Assembly: GCA_902762955.1 (NCBI GenBank)
Contig: CACWQH010000035.1
Location: forward strand, 1 to 34,362
Direction of reading: 5' to 3'
Length of the DNA: 34,362 nt
From: an uncultured Lachnospiraceae bacterium
GTDB lineage: Bacteria > Bacillota > Clostridia > Lachnospirales > Lachnospiraceae
In this document: positions 7,703-15,887 of the stretch, one piece after another
Layout: each line of letters begins with the position of its first letter
Numbering within the stretch: position 1 is the stretch's first letter
Position numbers and translations under genes: made by a program
The notes under the pieces: model-generated
Database searches by the model: none
The model's input: only the letters and a program-made list of their open reading frames with translations
What the model was told of the DNA's origin: nothing

Positions 7703-9028
7703 TTAGTACATATGAGTACTTGTTTTTATTGCAGGAGCAATGCACTTAAACATCGTTCCCTCTACAACCGGATAAGGGTTATCACGATTTGTCCATATCC
7801 GGCCTATATCCATAAAGCATTCCGTCATTTCATACTGCATACCGATTTCCACATCTTCTCCGTCGTAGACATAATTGCCTTCCGGCAAATCCATCCACCC
7901 CTGGAAATAATGTACCGAATTCGGATATAAATCAAAGCCTAAAGAATTTCCAAATGCTCCGTTTCCGTTAACCTCAACCTCGTCACCCCAGCAGTTAAAA
8001 TCATAACCAATATCTGAATCATTAACTACAAAACCCTTTATGCAGATTGTATCATCATCTTCTTCCTGAGTATTGACTCTTGTTATATAAAATTTTACAC
8101 CGTTGTAATCAATCATAGGTGTGAGCCCTGACAGATCAGGCACATCACTTACAGCATTTTCCTGTCCGTTAGGGTAAAATGCAACATCTTCTCCGATAAG
8201 GAAATTATAGTCCTCATCCTCTGCTTCTGCGTAAAACTCCAAGCTCGACGGTTCCTCTGAAAAACCTGTATAATCATAATCCCAGTTGTGGTCATCCAGC
8301 CAGATTATAGAAACCTCTCTGGTCTGCCCTTTTGCTACACGTGACTGCGGTGTAAGTGCTTTTCTTCCGATCTCAACACCGTTATATCTTACAAAATAGA
8401 AATTAACCCAGATGCCGCCCTTTGCCCTGTTGTTGGTTACCTTCAAATCCCATCTGTAGCGGGCATCTTCAAAATCCTCTCCCGGCTGTGGATGGTGAAT
8501 ATTAACTATCTCAATTGTCATAACTTCATTATCAACTATTATAGGATTCTCCGGTACATAATCAGTTCCGACAGACGGATCATGATTTACATCATCAATG
8601 GCTTCCTCGGTAGAAGTATCTGCTTCCTCTGTCACTGTATCTTCAATAACTATATCACCCTCAGTAGTTCCGTCATCGGTGTCCTTTGCCTCGGTTATCT
8701 CACTCTCGGTAGTAGTCTTGGACTTCTTATCAGAGTCCTCTGATTTTTTATTTTTAGCAACAACTATTATTACAACTACAGCTATCACAGCCAAAATCGC
8801 AATTATAATTCCGATGATAAGACCGGTTTTCTTCTTACCACCGTTTCCACCGTTTGAAGAACCGGATGAAGCTCCGTTACCTGCCGGTGTCGTATAATTT
8901 CCACCTGACGGCTGACTGTAATTTTGCTGTTGCATCTCATACTGCTGCTGATAGTACTGCTGTTGCATCTCATACTGCTGCTGATAGTACTGCTGCTGCA
9001 TATTATTTTGCTGATTGTTATTATCCAT
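7703..9028 (-). CDS. Q/Y/N-rich single-TM envelope protein, paralogue 3
   Basis: 441 residues. Order: a Gln/Tyr/Asn-rich tail (about 1-40, with a repeated YYQQQYEMQQQ), a Gly/Ser/Asn linker, GGKKKTG, one TM helix (about 68-92, LIIGIIIAILAVIAVVVIIV), a Lys-rich then acidic Thr/Glu linker, and a C-terminal region with two related beta-rich units. The first has NPIIVDNEVMTIEIVNIHH and YRWDLKVTNNR; the second has MIDYNGVKFYITRV and FVVNDSDIGYDF. By the usual pattern for such proteins the Q-rich tail is cytoplasmic and the C-terminus outside. The beta units recall DUF4352-like lipoprotein domains, but that is weak. A TTG start 33 bases upstream is possible; ATG 9028 matches its paralogues (MDNN). 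Gap to the preceding gene is 26 bases. Confidence 0.8.
   Translation of the reverse strand: MDNNNQQNNMQQQYYQQQYEMQQQYYQQQYEMQQQNYSQPSGGNYTTPAGNGASSGSSNGGNGGKKKTGLIIGIIIAILAVIAVVVIIVVAKNKKSEDSDKKSKTTTESEITEAKDTDDGTTEGDIVIEDTVTEEADTSTEEAIDDVNHDPSVGTDYVPENPIIVDNEVMTIEIVNIHHPQPGEDFEDARYRWDLKVTNNRAKGGIWVNFYFVRYNGVEIGRKALTPQSRVAKGQTREVSIIWLDDHNWDYDYTGFSEEPSSLEFYAEAEDEDYNFLIGEDVAFYPNGQENAVSDVPDLSGLTPMIDYNGVKFYITRVNTQEEDDDTICIKGFVVNDSDIGYDFNCWGDEVEVNGNGAFGNSLGFDLYPNSVHYFQGWMDLPEGNYVYDGEDVEIGMQYEMTECFMDIGRIWTNRDNPYPVVEGTMFKCIAPAIKTSTHMY
8931..8996. repeat. 33-bp direct repeat, two units, coding for YYQQQYEMQQQ
   Basis: Two consecutive 33-base units, near-identical, encode the 11-residue Gln/Tyr repeat in paralogue 3. 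A closely similar stretch occurs in paralogue 2 around 10690-10740, so slippage or gene conversion between the paralogues is possible. Confidence 0.8.
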
Positions 9029-9054
9029 CTCCCATGTGCCCCCTGCTTTATATT

Positions 9055-10863
9055 TTACCAATCACTTATATCATACTCTTCGTAAATATCCTCAGGTTCT
9101 TCTGCCTCTTCCTTCTTGTACGGCATAGAGAAGCTGTACTGCTGTTCAGGTACAATTTCATCATATGTATCATAATCACGAATTGTATACGGAATACTTA
9201 TATTAAAGCCGTTCTCAGGTCCATATTCATCCTCCATTTTTATCCATCCCTGAAAATAAGACGTTGTATGAGGAGATACACCCATATGTATCCTGTCTGC
9301 TCTTTCAAATGCAACTCCGTTTACATATATGTCATCATTATAACATGCTTCAAGATAATAAAAAACATCCGAATCATTTACCAAAAAGCCTTCCATCATT
9401 ATATAATCATCTTCGTCAAGATAAGTGTCAGTTATATAGAATCTCATACCCTCGTATTCCAAAAACGGAGTATAGGCTGAAAGATCAGGAACAGCACTTG
9501 CATCATTTTCCACTCCGTTGGCATAGAACTCAATCGGCTTATCATACAAGTCATTATAGTCATCATCCTCGACATGCAAAGTAAATTTACAGGATGCCGC
9601 ATCACCAAAGTATCTATAGTTGTCAATAAACTCGAGCCATGAAAGGGATATCTCTCTTGTCTGTCCGACTCCTATAGGCGCATCATTATTAAGATGTCTT
9701 CCGCCTATAACAACATTGTTATACTGCATATCCATGAAATCAACATAGATACCGCCCTTTTTCCTGTTGTTGGTTATTTTGAGATCCCATCTGTAAAGCG
9801 CATCTTCCTTGTAATGCTCATCCGGTTCATACTTATGGATATTGGCGATCTCAATTGTCAACACGTCATCATCATAGAGGATAGGATTATCAGGAACATA
9901 ATCATACTCACCTGTCTGAACGGTCTCTCCGCCACCTGAGCCGCCGGAACCGCCAAATGTATCCGCATCAATTACGGCATACTCCTCGGCAGATATCTCG
10001 GTAAACTCAAGAATCATCTCGCCTGCATTATCCGAAAATGTAATCTTATCGTCCTTAAGAATAATACTAAAATCATCACATATCAGATATATCTCATCCG
10101 CATCAAACTCTGCACTGTCTATATCTGTAACATAATCACCTGACATATAGACATATCCTGTATACGAATCAGTATTAAGATAAACAAAAGAATGCATTCC
10201 GGACTGTTCGTAATCTAAAAATACATCAGTGTAATCATTTCCGTCCTTGTCATAAGCACGACTTAAAGAGAAATATCTCTCATTCGAAACTGCTTCCTCT
10301 GTTGTATCCTCTTCAGTCGTATCCGTATCCTCTGTAGAAGAAGCTTCTGTGGTTTTATCGTTTTTCTTATCGTCCTTATCTTTCTTCTTATTTTTCACAA
10401 CAACGATTGTAATAATTACAGCGACCAATATAACTACCGCTGCAATTATACCTATTATAAGACCGGTTTTCTTTTTCCCTCCGCCGGAAGTACCACCGGT
10501 TCCGTTGCCCGAAGCCTGATTATACTGATTATCCGGCTGTCCCACCGGATGTGCCTGCTGTTGATAATATTGCTGTGTGCCCTGCTGCCCGCTGTACTGT
10601 TGCTGCATAGCATCCTGTTGTCCGGCATACTGTTGCTGCACTGCATCCTGCTGTGGTTGCTGTGCCTGCTGCTGTGCATACATCTGTTGGTAGTACTGCT
10701 GTTGCATCTCGTACTGCTGCTGGTAGTACTGCTGCTGTGCAGCATTTTGAGCGGCATCATACTGCTGCTGGTTGTACTGCTGCTGTGCATTATACTGCTG
10801 CCCTGCGGCATTTTGTTGATAACCCTGTCCGGCATATCCTTGCTGATTTTGATTATTATCCAT
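9055..10863 (-). CDS. Q/Y/N-rich single-TM envelope protein, paralogue 2 (longest)
   Basis: 602 residues. The first 120 are dominated by Gln, Tyr, Ala and Gly (QQQYNQQQYDAAQNAAQQQY and similar), a composition typical of prion-like or phase-separating segments. GGGKKKTG and one TM helix (about 138-162) follow, then a Lys/Asp and Thr/Glu linker. Unlike its paralogues it has an extra domain of roughly 120 residues (RYFSLSRAYDKDGNDYTDVF to about 310), joined by GGSGGSGGGE to the shared C-terminal double beta unit (NPILYDDDVLTIEIANIH, YRWDLKITNNRKKGG; FLEYEGMRFYITDTY, GFLVNDSDVFYYLE). AAGGAG lies 7-8 bases before the ATG. It is 36 bases after paralogue 1 and 26 bases before paralogue 3. Function unknown. 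Confidence 0.8.
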   Translation of the reverse strand: MDNNQNQQGYAGQGYQQNAAGQQYNAQQQYNQQQYDAAQNAAQQQYYQQQYEMQQQYYQQMYAQQQAQQPQQDAVQQQYAGQQDAMQQQYSGQQGTQQYYQQQAHPVGQPDNQYNQASGNGTGGTSGGGKKKTGLIIGIIAAVVILVAVIITIVVVKNKKKDKDDKKNDKTTEASSTEDTDTTEEDTTEEAVSNERYFSLSRAYDKDGNDYTDVFLDYEQSGMHSFVYLNTDSYTGYVYMSGDYVTDIDSAEFDADEIYLICDDFSIILKDDKITFSDNAGEMILEFTEISAEEYAVIDADTFGGSGGSGGGETVQTGEYDYVPDNPILYDDDVLTIEIANIHKYEPDEHYKEDALYRWDLKITNNRKKGGIYVDFMDMQYNNVVIGGRHLNNDAPIGVGQTREISLSWLEFIDNYRYFGDAASCKFTLHVEDDDYNDLYDKPIEFYANGVENDASAVPDLSAYTPFLEYEGMRFYITDTYLDEDDYIMMEGFLVNDSDVFYYLEACYNDDIYVNGVAFERADRIHMGVSPHTTSYFQGWIKMEDEYGPENGFNISIPYTIRDYDTYDEIVPEQQYSFSMPYKKEEAEEPEDIYEEYDISDW

Positions 10864-10899
10864 TTCCCCTCTCCTTCAACATATGTCGTAATATTTTAA

Positions 10900-12282
10900 T
10901 CAATACTTATAAGACGGTAAAGTACATTCAAATATTGAATCATAAACCTCATCTTCCCAGGCATAAGTTCCTGCATCTTGTCTTGTGCATTCGATAAGCT
11001 TATATCTTATTTGGATAGTGTTAGAGTCTGATGCCATAACCGGTTCCTCGGTGCCATCAACCCATGCCTGGAAATAATATACCTTATGTGCACCGGCGTA
11101 AGTTGTCAGATAGTTTCCGCCTGTACTGACTCCGTTTAAGGTCATGTCCTCCCATTGATCTTCAAGATAATAATTCACATCGGAATCATTGATTATAAAT
11201 CCCTTAAGAGGCATTGACTCGTAAAATCCCTCTTCCTTGGTGTAAAAACAGGTTAAGTAAAATTTCAAGCCGTTATAATCTATCAAAGGTGTAAGACCGG
11301 ACAAATCCGGCAGATCACTTACAGCATTTTCCTCACCATAAGGATAGTACTCCACATCTTCGCCAATCAAAAACTGAAATTCCTCATCAACCGCCGTAAA
11401 ATACACCTTAATGCTTGTGGCATCGGTAAAGCCCGAATAATCGGATAACCAATCACTCTCATCCAGCCACATAAAAGACACCTCTCTGCTCTCGCCCGGA
11501 GCAATTACATCATCGGGATTAAGCTCTTTTCGACCGATTATGATTCCGTTATACTCACAATCCATTGCATTTACCTCTATTCCACCTTTTTTCCTGTTGT
11601 TGGTAATCTTCATATCCCATCTGTAGGATCTTTCTTCATAATCATACTCTTCCGCTTCAGGATGGAAATGGTGTATATTGGTTATCTCAACGGTAAAAAC
11701 CTCATTGTCAACTATAATTGGATTTTCCGGAACATAGTCCTCACCATTGTTCGGATCATGGTTTACATCCTTAGCTACATCCTCTGTTGTGTCCTCTGAC
11801 ACTTCGTTCGTGGCTTCTTCAGTAGCTTCTGTATCCCTTTCTGTCGCTTCGGTTAAATCCGCCTCGGTAACTGTTTCCGTTTTATCCGACTTACCTTTAG
11901 AATCAGAATCATCATCTTTCTTATTTTTCATCAAAACGACAACTATGATAATCGCAATAATAGCCACAGCAGCAATTATCAGGCCTACGATAAGACCTGT
12001 CTTCTTACCGCCATTATTTTGATTATTGCCGCCATTGTTGCCGTTTCCGCCACCCGTCTGATAGACAGGCTGTTGGTTATACATCTGTTGATTTGGCATC
12101 TGCTGCCCATTATATTGCTGCTGATAATTCTGTTGTTGATAGTTCTGCTGCTGGTAGCTCTGTTGCTGATAGTTCTGTTGCTGACCATTCTGCTGACCGT
12201 AATTATATTGTTGATTGTTTGTCATATTCGGGTTTACGTTATAGCCCTGACCATTTTGTCCGTTGCCATAATTGTTATCCAT
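10900..12282 (-). CDS. Q/Y/N-rich single-TM envelope protein, paralogue 1
   Basis: 460 residues. It begins MDNNYGNGQNGQGY and continues with repeated QQNYQQQ/QQSYQQQ units to about residue 70, then a Gly/Asn-rich linker, KKTG, one TM helix (about 97-120, LIVGLIIAAVAIIAIIIVVV), a Lys/Asp/Ser stretch, a Thr/Glu-rich linker, and the shared C-terminal double beta unit (NPIIVDNEVFTVEITNIHH, YRWDMKITNNRKKGG; LIDYNGLKFYLTCF, GFIINDSDVNYYLE). GAGGAG lies 8 bases before the ATG; a TTG 27 bases upstream is less likely. It is the first gene of the five-gene set, with the 89-bp repeat in its leader. No enzyme motif is visible, so a structural or sensing role at the envelope is the most I can infer. Confidence 0.8.
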   Translation of the reverse strand: MDNNYGNGQNGQGYNVNPNMTNNQQYNYGQQNGQQQNYQQQSYQQQNYQQQNYQQQYNGQQMPNQQMYNQQPVYQTGGGNGNNGGNNQNNGGKKTGLIVGLIIAAVAIIAIIIVVVLMKNKKDDDSDSKGKSDKTETVTEADLTEATERDTEATEEATNEVSEDTTEDVAKDVNHDPNNGEDYVPENPIIVDNEVFTVEITNIHHFHPEAEEYDYEERSYRWDMKITNNRKKGGIEVNAMDCEYNGIIIGRKELNPDDVIAPGESREVSFMWLDESDWLSDYSGFTDATSIKVYFTAVDEEFQFLIGEDVEYYPYGEENAVSDLPDLSGLTPLIDYNGLKFYLTCFYTKEEGFYESMPLKGFIINDSDVNYYLEDQWEDMTLNGVSTGGNYLTTYAGAHKVYYFQAWVDGTEEPVMASDSNTIQIRYKLIECTRQDAGTYAWEDEVYDSIFECTLPSYKY

Positions 12283-12321
12283 TAATGCTGCTCCTCTCAC
12301 ATATGCCAATTTATATTATTA

Positions 12322-12555: not shown

Positions 12556-12594
12556 AAAAAAAAGTGTCAATCAGGCGTACGCCCAATTGACACA
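12556..12594 (-). terminator. Rho-independent terminator after the radical SAM gene
   Basis: On the minus strand GTGTCAAT, GGCGTACGCC and ATTGACAC form a long stem interrupted by two short bulges, followed directly by at least eight T. It starts about 25 bases after the radical SAM stop codon. Confidence 0.88.
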
Positions 12595-12618: not shown

Positions 12619-13692
12619 TTAAAACAATATATCCTTAAAGCACAAAATCGGTTCATTGTTTTCAAAGTCCCAGCTATGATAGGAATCCCCGTGACATCTG
12701 TCCTTTTCGCTGCAGCCTTGACATTTGTCGCATCTGTCGCTTAAGTCAATTCTAAATTCCCCAAACCGGTTTTCCCATACATCCTTAAATCTGTCCTTTA
12801 ATATATTTCCCTGCACCAGCTCCGGTCTTCTCTCGATATCAAGACATGCTATTATATCACCGCTTGCGGTTATACTTGCGACATAAAGGCCTGCCGAGCA
12901 GATGAAGTACCAGTCTCTTATCTCGCGCTCGTATTCTCCGCCAAGATAATGACTGCAGCCGTATTCCACAGGCTCACCGGCCATCCTCTTATCTCTGATA
13001 AATTCCATCAGATACCGATAATCCTCTTTGGTTAAAATAAGCTCCGGATGAAGCTTTGCCCTTCCCATAGGCTCGATATTTATTACTCTCCAGGAATCTA
13101 TATCCATTTTGTCAAATATTTCATATAACGCATCCAACTCGCCTATATTTTGATGGGTAACCACAGTAGTAACCTGAACGGCCTTGAATTTTCCTACATC
13201 TATAAGATTTTGGATACCCTCCATTGCCTTCTTGTAGCCGCCCGGAGTCTGTCTGAAAGCATCATGAGTTTCCTCAAGTCCGTCGATACTAACAGATATG
13301 GTGCTCATCCCTGCCTCATAGAGCTTCTTTGCAACTTTCGGCGTGATTAAAGTACCGTTACTCGTCATTCCCCACTTAAATCCAAGCATTTTTGCATAGC
13401 CCATTATGTCAAAGAAGTCTTTTCTGAGCAGCGGCTCCCCTCCGGTTATGCAAAGCATAAAGCCCTTTGTTCCAAAGTCTTCCTTTACCTCATCCAAAAA
13501 TGCTTTGTACTGCTCCAAGGTTAATTCTTCACTTTTAACATCTCCGCAGGAGCTTCCACAATGCAGGCAGCGTTCATTACACCGAAGTGTAAGCTCCAGA
13601 AAAAGATTCTTGAGTAACGGCTTTTTCTTAAGACCTTCCCTATACTCGGCGAGCTGCCTCATATGTTCATATTTTATATCAACATTTAACAT
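12619..13692 (-). CDS. Radical SAM/SPASM enzyme, probable peptide maturase
   Basis: 357 residues. The N-terminus carries the radical SAM iron-sulfur motif CNERCLHC (Cys38, Cys42, Cys45), then the usual glycine-rich SAM site (CITGGEPLLRKDFF) and DG motif (SVSIDGLEETHDAFR). The C-terminal third is a SPASM-type domain with many cysteines (YFICSAGLYVASITASGDII, then RCDKCQGCSEKDRCHG and PILCF) for auxiliary clusters. Such enzymes install cross-links or other changes on ribosomal peptides, or activate partner enzymes. The neighbour 54 bases upstream is a small lipoprotein with a repeated VYGPPxDF motif, a natural candidate substrate. GGGG lies 8 bases before the ATG at 13692; the ATG at 13710 has no ribosome binding site. 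A dedicated terminator follows. Substrate is inferred, not shown. Confidence 0.85.
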   Translation of the reverse strand: MLNVDIKYEHMRQLAEYREGLKKKPLLKNLFLELTLRCNERCLHCGSSCGDVKSEELTLEQYKAFLDEVKEDFGTKGFMLCITGGEPLLRKDFFDIMGYAKMLGFKWGMTSNGTLITPKVAKKLYEAGMSTISVSIDGLEETHDAFRQTPGGYKKAMEGIQNLIDVGKFKAVQVTTVVTHQNIGELDALYEIFDKMDIDSWRVINIEPMGRAKLHPELILTKEDYRYLMEFIRDKRMAGEPVEYGCSHYLGGEYEREIRDWYFICSAGLYVASITASGDIIACLDIERRPELVQGNILKDRFKDVWENRFGEFRIDLSDRCDKCQGCSEKDRCHGDSYHSWDFENNEPILCFKDILF

Positions 13693-13746
13693 ACAAATTA
13701 CCCCATGCAATCAACCGGCATATTTTATACAGCCCGACAAATTATT

Positions 13747-14016
13747 TTACTCAAAATCCTCCGGTGGTCCATACACATCCTCAGGTACATCATCCTCCGG
13801 ATTATATTTCTCGGTAGTTGTCTCTTCAGTAGTTGTATCATCAAAGTCTGTCGGCGGACCATACACCGTCGCCGGCTCCGTTATCTCGATATCCTCTGTT
13901 GTCGGCTTATCCGTTGTCTGATCGTTCTTGTTTGACCTGCAGCTTGTAAATCCGGCCAGAAACACTCCACTGGTCAAAGCTGCCGCTATCAGTTTTGTTT
14001 TGGTTGTTTTCTTCAT
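13747..14016 (-). CDS. Small lipoprotein with two VYGPPxDF motifs, candidate radical SAM substrate
   Basis: 89 residues. MKKTTKTKLIAAALTSGVFL and GFTSC form a lipoprotein-type signal with Cys26. The mature part is acidic and Thr-rich (16 Thr) and carries two copies of one motif: VYGPPTDF at 51-58 and VYGPPEDFE at the very C-terminus (81-89). Between them lies TTTEETTTEKYNPEDDVPED. No globular domain is likely. The radical SAM/SPASM gene follows after 54 bases. Repeated short motifs beside a SPASM enzyme are typical of modified precursor peptides, and radical SAM/lipoprotein pairs with a tyrosine-glycine-(x)-proline motif are described in Bacteroidales, as I recall. AGAAGG lies 6 bases before the ATG. 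Confidence 0.75.
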   Translation of the reverse strand: MKKTTKTKLIAAALTSGVFLAGFTSCRSNKNDQTTDKPTTEDIEITEPATVYGPPTDFDDTTTEETTTEKYNPEDDVPEDVYGPPEDFE

Positions 14017-14081: not shown

Positions 14082-14735
14082 TCATCTTCCTACAAGTGCC
14101 TTCGATACCTCAATAACTCCCTTATGCTTCAGTTCTCTTGGTTCAAACTTTATAAGATAATACACAAGCTGCATCACGAGTCCTGCTCCAAATGTACTTA
14201 TCAGAGTTCCTATACCTACCGAGCCTCCAAGCAGATACCCTGCCAGCAAAACCACAGCCCAAAGCATTACCTCAACTATGCCTATCGGGACCCTTGACAT
14301 TCTCTTTCCGAGTCCTACCAAAAGCGCATCTCTCGGACCACAGCACTGCTCCGCACTCATGTATATCCACATTCCGATTGCCATAAACACAAATCCGACA
14401 AGCATTATAACAATTCCCAACCAGAGATTATTATTTTCAGGAAACGGATTGAGACTGTTATACATCTGCACAAAATTACCTGTAAGGAGTGCATCTATGA
14501 TTGTTCCGTAGCCTATCTTTTCCTTGAGCAAAACATCTATCAAAAGAATAATCACTGCCATAATCGTCATGGAAATTCCATAATTAAACGGTGTATGCTT
14601 CGCCATACCCATCCCCAGGCAGTCCCATGGTGCAAGTCCGATATTGGCATATATCGTCATATGGACTCCCAATGCGAAAACCAGCAATCCGAACACAATT
14701 CTTATCCATTCCAAAAAAAGTCTTTTACGGGTCAT
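14082..14735 (-). CDS. YczE/YitT-type integral membrane protein
   Basis: 217 residues with about five hydrophobic segments. The opening FLEWIRIVFGLLVFALGVHM, then ANIGLAPWDCLGMGMA, and GPRDALLVGLGKR in the second half are the conserved loops of the YczE/YyaS family (COG2364), whose two halves are repeats. Transport or regulatory function is not established. Its ATG overlaps the stop of the acyltransferase gene (ATGA), so translation is probably coupled. The VYGPP lipoprotein follows after 65 bases on the same strand, so a longer transcript is possible. Confidence 0.85.
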   Translation of the reverse strand: MTRKRLFLEWIRIVFGLLVFALGVHMTIYANIGLAPWDCLGMGMAKHTPFNYGISMTIMAVIILLIDVLLKEKIGYGTIIDALLTGNFVQMYNSLNPFPENNNLWLGIVIMLVGFVFMAIGMWIYMSAEQCCGPRDALLVGLGKRMSRVPIGIVEVMLWAVVLLAGYLLGGSVGIGTLISTFGAGLVMQLVYYLIKFEPRELKHKGVIEVSKALVGR

Positions 14736-15811
14736 TTTTCTGTTTTCTCCCTAACCGCAATCTTTTTGATTAATTTCAGAACATATTTTGTCAATAGCTT
14801 AACCAAGAATGCAACAATTATTATAACTATAAACTGGTATAAAAACATTAGCAAAATCATATATTTGTTTACATACCATTTTGAAAGCCATGAACCCATA
14901 TCAAGAATTATGAAATGATGTACCAGCAATACTTCATAAGAAACACTACTCAAAAAATCAAGTATTCTTAATTTGTATTTTTTCAACAATTCTTCAAAAA
15001 ACGAACATGATACAAAAAAGGCAACTGAAGCCATCGTAATTTTCAACGCCACATTGATATTAAGCGCACTTTTACTGACAATAAAATATACCAGAACAGG
15101 AAATGAAACATACATACATTTAGAAGGAAATCTCTTAAAATATCTTCCAAAATACATTCCCAATATAAATTCGCAGCCCTTGATTATCAAATTCTCCCAA
15201 AGCGGCACTTTAAAACTTATGCCACTATATGCGGTAATTACATAAACGCACGCTGAAACGACAAAAAATATCTTAGGATATTTATCCATAAAAAATTTAA
15301 ATACCGGAAACAGTACATACAAGATAATTATCGCGCCTAGAAACCATTCGCCTATTGCCTTATAAAATGTAGGAACTTTGTGTATCGCGAGCCAACCGTC
15401 AATACCAAGAAATGAATAAATAAATCTCCATCTTGGAATGTCAGGAAGTCCTATGCCTTTTAATTTGATCCAAAGATACACATATAAGAGAATATTAACT
15501 ATATAAAACGAAGGCATCAGTCTTATAAATCTTTTCTTGTAAAAACTTTTCACACTGTATGATTTATCAGCACTTGTAATAAGTCCCGCACCTGAAAGAA
15601 TAAAAAATACAGAAACAGAAAGGGTTGCTATATGCATATTTGGATTTTGAAAATAAACAGCAACCTCTTCAAAAGTATAAACGCCACTTGAATATAGGTA
15701 CACAAGCATATGATAAAGCACAATCAACCCCAAGGATATCACCCTTATCAAGTCATAGTATCTATATCTTTCCGTATCTTTAACATTATCTTTCTTTAAT
15801 AACGAACTCAT
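14732..15811 (-). CDS. Acyltransferase 3 family membrane protein
   Basis: 359 residues with about ten TM segments. It has the family's opening (YYDLIRVISLGLIVLYHML), the FFILSGAGLI motif with KRFIRLMPSFY, and a late VSYEVLLVHHF. Members transfer acetyl or other acyl groups to surface sugars, peptidoglycan or lipids (OafA/PF01757). The ATG at 15811 follows AAAGAGG at 5-6 bases; earlier in-frame ATGs (15880, 15838) lack a good site. The gene overlaps the YczE-type gene by four bases. The substrate cannot be told from sequence. Confidence 0.88.
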   Translation of the reverse strand: MSSLLKKDNVKDTERYRYYDLIRVISLGLIVLYHMLVYLYSSGVYTFEEVAVYFQNPNMHIATLSVSVFFILSGAGLITSADKSYSVKSFYKKRFIRLMPSFYIVNILLYVYLWIKLKGIGLPDIPRWRFIYSFLGIDGWLAIHKVPTFYKAIGEWFLGAIIILYVLFPVFKFFMDKYPKIFFVVSACVYVITAYSGISFKVPLWENLIIKGCEFILGMYFGRYFKRFPSKCMYVSFPVLVYFIVSKSALNINVALKITMASVAFFVSCSFFEELLKKYKLRILDFLSSVSYEVLLVHHFIILDMGSWLSKWYVNKYMILLMFLYQFIVIIIVAFLVKLLTKYVLKLIKKIAVREKTEK

Positions 15812-15847
15812 AAAAACCTCTTTATCACTGTTAATCATATATGCACG

Positions 15848-15887
15848 TAAAAAGTGTGTCAAAATAAAATTATGACACACTTTTTTT
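15848..15887. terminator. Hairpin terminator between AICAR transformylase and acyltransferase genes
   Basis: AAAGTGTGTC (15851-15860) pairs perfectly with GACACACTTT (15874-15883) around a 13-base AT-rich loop. It begins 2 bases after the AICAR transformylase stop on the minus strand and is followed by a short T run there; T7 follows on the plus strand. It should end the purine transcript. Confidence 0.8.

Follow-up and report, generated by a model that had tools for sequence, protein, structure and literature searches.

The systems closest to the locus described here are the radical SAM/lipoprotein pairs captured by the NCBIfam models TIGR04133 (rSAM_w_lipo) and TIGR04134 (lipo_with_rSAM), the splicease PlpXY, and mycofactocin MftC, which acts on a C-terminal Val-Tyr. 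Two reports describe PlpXY as excising tyramine at X-Tyr-Gly (natural sites MYG and LYG) with no need for a leader, and count 27 other characterised and 939 predicted systems (PMC10533398; PMC11002830); PlpX works with PlpY (PMC11002830). The former report has PlpXY acting on short tags inside proteins, each spliced site bringing a loss of 135.0757 Da, and records that many inserted tags were not accepted (PMC10533398), which means that XYG alone does not make a site. For the cellulosome of Ruminococcus flavefaciens FD-1, 222 dockerin proteins (118 of them with unknown regions) and three serpin modules have been described, and the portion of that report available to us contains no mention that we saw of YGPP repeats or of a radical SAM partner (PMC2930009).

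The gene pair of the window

The window (the whole stretch of 34,362 nucleotides that was analysed, from an uncultured Lachnospiraceae bacterium) carries on its reverse strand a gene for a putative lipoprotein (13747..14016, 89 aa), directly followed, on the same strand, by a radical SAM/SPASM enzyme gene (12619..13692, 357 aa from the ATG at 13692). The lipoprotein, which we regard as the candidate substrate, consists of a putative N-terminal signal, an acidic Thr-rich spacer and two VYGPPxDF copies: the first (VYGPPTDF, residues 51-58, 13843..13866; DNA match 13853-13866) has Tyr52 as its putative modification site, and the second (VYGPPEDF, residues 81-88, 13753..13776; DNA match 13763-13776) has Tyr82 and is followed by a single Glu that ends the protein. 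The signal peptide with the putative lipidated Cys26 (13939..14016) ends, as read from the translation, in ..FLAGFTSC26, which is lipobox-like with a non-canonical Phe at -3; Cys26 is invariant in all 14 rows of the alignment. The same alignment presents the protein and its relatives as motif repeats on a disordered-looking chain, and scans of the window lipoprotein with Pfam and NCBIfam returned non-significant matches only.

The enzyme scores above the Pfam cut-offs for PF04055 and PF13186. A TTG at 13710 would provide an alternative start and a form six residues longer (363 aa, 12619-13710), but the ATG at 13692 is likelier, since this is where a close relative and the majority of the ruminococcal enzymes begin. 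In the 357-aa form the CxxxCxxC radical SAM cluster motif (C38, C42 and C45; 13558..13581) is invariant in the alignments, and the SPASM region (12640..12900) contains six conserved cysteines (C265, C283, C324, C327, C333 and C351), the canonical SPASM Cys that precedes the last one being absent by our reading of the alignment. With only 37 residues ahead of the first cluster Cys, an N-terminal recognition domain would hardly fit. The predicted structure (mean pLDDT 85, pTM 0.87) matched SkfB, SuiB, a sactipeptide-type thioether enzyme, anSME and ChlB in a fold search; as modelled, the fold of the enzyme is that of peptide-modifying SPASM enzymes. A strong intrinsic terminator (12556..12593, with a 13-pair stem followed by T8 at 12593-12564) lies directly 3' of the enzyme gene. 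An earlier, sequence-only reading of this stretch had described a lipoprotein built from a signal, an acidic Thr-rich spacer and two VYGPP(T/E)DF copies, with the second copy at the C-terminus, and a SPASM enzyme gene directly after it with a terminator of its own; the translation and the stem bear out this description throughout. Downstream of the module (7703-12309, reverse strand) the window encodes three tandem proteins, paralogous by eye, with a Gln-rich N-terminus, one transmembrane-like stretch, an acidic Thr/Glu-rich spacer and a C-terminal domain.

Pairing of enzyme and motif across genomes

The sequence-only reading had proposed asking, for each homologue of the enzyme, whether a neighbour with VYGPP repeats accompanies it, and the answer was positive in both of the genome sets consulted. 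The enzyme is present in 14 of 99 genomes, that of the window included (E <= 1e-60), and a VYGPP lipoprotein ORF adjoins it in 13 of them, again with the window's; the fourteenth (G029) has its enzyme close to where the stretch ends, and its lipoprotein ORF is cut off by the end of a different contig. Of the 37 genomes of the genus, 12 encode the enzyme, and the lipoprotein search finds those same 12; its weak matches in four genomes that lack the enzyme show YGPP in none of the frames. A one-genome-per-species scan yielded 499 relatives, from which the closest 80 were kept (mostly Ruminococcus, with many named R. flavefaciens), so that the rates given for them leave the more distant relatives outside; since several of these loci evidently come from the same genomes as the 14 (identical sequences), the two sets are not independent. 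At each locus the ORF was chosen blindly, with the motif ignored, as the longest of those on the enzyme's strand that end close to where the enzyme begins. This nearest upstream ORF has YG with a Pro within the next two places in 80 of 80 cases, and contains the motif at least twice in 78 of 80 (best 80 of 499 in both counts). ORFs with at least two YG(x)P motifs make up 140 of the 405 upstream of the enzyme vs 1 of the 963 downstream (the sole downstream one being that of L093). Among five matches of one search, L131 is truncated by its contig start, which puts the neighbour out of view. Judged by gene neighbourhood, the pairing of enzyme and motif protein is conserved.

The position of the motif in whole genomes is in line with this pairing. 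The DNA pattern for V-Y-G-P-P matches twice in the entire window genome, both times inside the lipoprotein gene; as the backwards-read control pattern also matches (once in the window genome, 0-3 times across 15 genomes), the number of matches proves nothing by itself and it is their place that carries the point. All seven of the enzyme-bearing genomes tested have at least two matches at the locus, and of eight enzyme-less genomes seven have no match, the eighth having just one, which falls in a short frame. Matches in G497, in G032 (contig C21) and in G018, the last without the enzyme, fall in short frames and are chance-like. In six ruminococcal genomes 34 matches were found, vs 1 in all for the backwards control; going by the coordinates, 27 of the 34 belong to the enzyme locus or to the 1 kb or so around it; six of the remaining seven are in four further substrate-like ORFs and one is chance-like.

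No further gene travels widely with the pair: with shadow frames of the two genes set aside, every ORF cluster is confined to 19 or fewer of the 80 neighbourhoods (ORFs of at least 50 aa; best 80 of 499), which leaves no dedicated exporter, protease or PlpY-like partner in sight. A larger operon that would include the upstream YczE-like gene (14082-14735) and the upstream gene at 14732-15880 was considered and rejected, as these recur in 2 and 1 of the 80 scan loci, respectively.

The 80 blind-chosen ORFs (best 80 of 499) contain 348 YG; a Pro occupies either of the two following positions in 293 of them and the first of these in 278. The position preceding Tyr is variable (V 172, L 72, A 31, E 14, D 14, T 12, and others). 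In a set of 499 distinct stretches taken from the substrates, the shares of the two prolines (96% and 87%) are inflated, since the stretches were picked for a Pro within two places after YG; besides Y, G, P and P, only V at -1 (60%) reaches half, while 45% have Gln at -3 and 47% have Phe or Tyr at +6. That no other residue reaches half counts against cross-linking with a fixed partner. Furthermore, Cys after residue 45 is absent in 110 of 156 distinct substrate ORFs and occurs one or more times in the other 46, and we rejected thioether chemistry (of the sactipeptide or ranthipeptide type) on account of the former. The substrate ORFs have one to eight motifs each, and each locus has one to six such ORFs. 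At L119 (148-3982) six tandem ORFs with YGPP motifs stand before one enzyme, several of them with dockerin-like stretches.

One motif on changing scaffolds

As read across these loci, the motif stays constant while the scaffold that carries it changes. All ten ruminococcal substrates submitted to Pfam exceeded the Dockerin_1 cut-off, and a dockerin profile built from ten Pfam-confirmed segments (which replaced a regular-expression count of 73) was positive for 98 of the 148 substrate ORFs, and at 65 of the 80 loci (R. flavefaciens and kin; best 80 of 499), the 148 being mechanical, motif-chosen lists with some shadow frames or over-long starts and with L085, which does have a substrate, omitted. 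A crude lipobox pattern was found in 41 of the 50 ORFs without a dockerin vs 4 of the 98 with one, and lipobox-like and dockerin-type substrates are both present at 25 loci, including that of R. flavefaciens FD-1 (L104). In the lipoproteins of four genus g60 genomes and two of the ruminococcal order the motif stands at or beside the putative lipidated Cys. On an enzyme tree (65 rows, a subset of the loci) the dockerin association needs 3 changes vs 21 in shuffles, and the window enzyme is grouped with four lipoprotein-type enzymes of its kin (support 98/100); the branches of MftC and an Agathobacter enzyme are very long, and the placement of these two is uninformative. A dockerin substrate had no match in the plasmid collection. 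The phage collection gave two weak matches, the one inspected being uninformative. The window genome has a single dockerin above the Pfam cut-off, in a 650-aa frame (G000:C42:21351-21506).

A third kind of carrier resembles zinc ribbons. On a contig of the viral collection (L140, 3015-5077) a zinc-ribbon-type protein with CxxC pairs is encoded directly upstream of a 59%-identical enzyme; it contains IYGSP and LYGSP and a C-terminal hydrophobic stretch, and scores below the cut-off for Pfam Zn_ribbon_8. Small zinc-ribbon-like proteins with YGPP between the CxxC pairs, unlinked to the enzyme, were found in 4 of 99 relatives (L149 1444-1755, L150 1483-1764, L151 1438-1872 and L152 1018-1329), all four being enzyme-bearing genomes out of the 14 and close relatives of one another. 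R. flavefaciens MC2020 likewise has an unlinked zinc-ribbon protein with V-Y-G-P-P (L158 969-2204). These unlinked proteins are possibly cytosolic substrates that are modified in trans. A search for the zinc-ribbon protein in the ruminococcal order was negative in 255 of 255 cases, although MC2020 has one, so that this empty result reflects threshold or sampling; the same search in plasmids, phages and viral contigs found none.

Other carriers are without a recognisable signal or far from the enzyme. Signal-less VYGPP ORFs stand in front of the usual exported substrate at two loci (L121 3289-3549; L051 3133-3468), an unlinked 305-aa VYGPP protein without a signal is encoded in G499 (L156 787-1704), and R. 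flavefaciens FD-1 has two unlinked VYGPP lipoproteins far from its enzyme locus (L154 1367-1696; L155 952-1176). In a separate case (L132, 975-3132) the gene for an FHA-domain protein with LYGCPNAD overlaps the start of that for a more distant radical SAM/SPASM protein with a JAB-like end (FHA above the Pfam cut-off, JAB just below), and this pair may be a cytosolic cousin of the module.

These carriers bear on two claims of the sequence-only reading. Its surface-tethered lipoprotein product stands in part: the motif is not bound to a lipoprotein, for dockerin and zinc-ribbon proteins and a few signal-less ORFs have it as well. Its choice of Tyr as the likely modified residue is well supported by the comparison, because Y-G-P is the sole near-constant part of the motif; from its constancy on otherwise unrelated scaffolds we infer, with considerable confidence, that the motif Tyr is modified.

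Candidate chemistry and relation to described systems

We propose a two-gene protein-modification module, in which a substrate gene is followed by the gene of a radical SAM/SPASM enzyme. The substrate would be made with an N-terminal signal, the enzyme would modify the Tyr of X-Tyr-Gly-Pro in the cytosol before export, and Sec would export the modified protein to a surface anchor (a lipid here, a dockerin in ruminococci). Were the modification a splicing, the outcome would be a surface-tethered array of ketoamides, which, as a guess, might act as covalent inhibitors of proteases guarding the envelope or the cellulosome. For the proposal of such a module together with its tethered ketoamide array we consider the chances to be even. 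With few constant atoms in the motif (Tyr, Gly and Pro), splicing fits, as it needs only X-Tyr-Gly with a variable X; the missing PlpY and a low score to TIGR04103 weaken it. To that model, which we take to be the PlpX family (IPR026482), the enzyme scores 116 bits of a 725-bit cut-off, below its scores to the models of heme b synthase AhbD (158) and MftC (150), and a TIGR04103 search of 398 genomes gave 0 matches, with none in the controls either. On this balance splicing is a credible chemistry that falls a little short of probable. A further-reaching version is more speculative, and we hold it tentatively: a PlpY-free, splicease-like branch would write reactive alpha-keto-beta-amino acid arrays into surface lipoproteins and cellulosome-docking proteins, its short X-Tyr-Gly-Pro tag having been transplanted between unrelated scaffolds, linked and unlinked. 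If true, both the membrane and the cellulosome of fibre-degrading gut bacteria would bear covalent warheads.

The alternative that survives best, although we find it somewhat improbable, is that the motif Tyr (or Gly/Pro) is modified in another way, e.g. by C-beta or ring oxidation, Tyr-Pro or Tyr-Gly ring closure, dehydrogenation or epimerisation, and that the product is a stable surface decoration and not a ketoamide. SPASM enzymes of the same fold perform many peptide chemistries, MftC (150 bits; target a Val-Tyr end) is among the next best models after TIGR04133, and a Pro directly after Gly in 278 of the 348 YG exceeds what splicing demands; against this, the residue before Tyr is variable and nothing is constant past the prolines, which leaves few cross-link partners, and XYG fits the splicease rule.

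A second alternative, which we regard as unlikely, would make the pair a plain member of the known TIGR04133/TIGR04134 radical SAM/lipoprotein system. TIGR04133 is by far the best of the NCBIfam models and aligns with almost the entire enzyme, and the window enzyme is 34-35% identical to the enzymes of three loci from the plasmid collection: those of Treponema saccharophilum and Parabacteroides distasonis, annotated as TIGR04133, and that of Phocaeicola massiliensis, which is unannotated. It shares with the TIGR04133-type enzymes Cys49, Cys246, the six SPASM Cys and the missing canonical penultimate SPASM Cys. Moreover, the lipoproteins of these three loci have one YGxP motif each (SCYGMP in Treponema, CEYGSP in Parabacteroides and CEYGTP in Phocaeicola), either at the lipobox or no more than some twelve residues from it, and followed by a beta domain of the CarboxypepD_reg type (above cut-off in 1 of 3); YGxP in these proteins is our own observation on three members and is not part of the model text. 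In the Phocaeicola locus the lipoprotein gene comes after that of the enzyme. On the other hand, the window enzyme reaches 276.5 bits against a cut-off of 425, where the two annotated members score 451 and 608, and TIGR04134 has no match to the window lipoprotein at E <= 1, while the Treponema, Parabacteroides and Phocaeicola lipoproteins exceed its cut-off; a disordered-looking repeat chain also contrasts with one motif and a beta domain. Plain membership was rejected on these scores. In 61 relatives TIGR04134 gave 0 matches, with none in the controls of that search either, and TIGR04133 at E <= 1e-60 over 398 genomes of the phylum matched only the window genome and G026. The comparison with this pair, which the sequence-only reading had suggested, thus came out divided: the kinship is real and YGxP is shared, but enzyme and lipoprotein both fall outside the curated models. 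A score under the cut-off, together with the cysteine pattern, makes the window enzyme a sister branch of TIGR04133, and the shared cysteines and YGxP suggest that the window pair works like the TIGR04133/TIGR04134 system, as its sister.

It is very unlikely, lastly, that the enzyme's real substrate is elsewhere and VYGPP is an unmodified binding or adhesion motif travelling with it: the modification is indeed something we infer, and Pro-rich motifs are common in surface proteins, but enzyme neighbours that are otherwise dissimilar share the motif, 33 of the 34 ruminococcal V-Y-G-P-P matches are at the locus or in signal-less or other substrate-like ORFs, and surface adhesion would not explain a motif carried by signal-less proteins.

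The presence of the motif on cellulosome-docking proteins of rumen fibre-degraders seems to be a new use for an enzyme-substrate pair of known type. We found nothing on TIGR04133 or VYGPP in the open literature searched, and nothing on this subject among the titles and abstract beginnings of the literature on dockerin and radical SAM. The preferred reading, a two-gene module that modifies the motif Tyr, would link an orphan radical SAM family with a short, defined target tag able to move from scaffold to scaffold, and may give a function to part of the large set of R. flavefaciens dockerin proteins whose function is unknown. If these are modified, cellulosomes would bear a post-translational chemistry for which no report was found in the literature searched, and an enzyme directed by such a tag would serve as a protein-labelling tool.

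Set against the described systems, the locus resembles each of them in part. Like PlpXY, it has a SPASM enzyme and, in the neighbouring substrate, X-Y-G sites at which X can vary; it differs in that no PlpY-like gene is common to the 80 neighbourhoods (ORFs of at least 50 aa), in the weak TIGR04103 score, in that neither a Nif11 nor a nitrile hydratase leader was seen, and in the near-constant Pro after Gly, which is not part of the splicease XYG rule. The likeness to mycofactocin lies in the SPASM enzyme and its 150 bits to the MftC model; MftC is encoded beside mftB and targets a C-terminal Val-Tyr, whereas here the Tyr is internal and followed by Gly-Pro. With the TIGR04133/TIGR04134 pair the locus shares the best-matching enzyme family, an adjacent gene for a putative lipoprotein with a lipobox-like sequence, and the X-Y-G-x-P motif, although the window pair misses both curated models; the three TIGR04134 lipoproteins have one motif each before a beta domain, whereas the window kin have up to 8 motifs per ORF and no beta domain, and, unlike that pair, the kin of the window enzyme have dockerin, zinc-ribbon and signal-less substrate versions. 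The dockerin versions, finally, connect the module with the R. flavefaciens cellulosome, whose dockerin proteins of unknown function are matched by the ruminococcal motif substrates in likewise carrying Dockerin_1.
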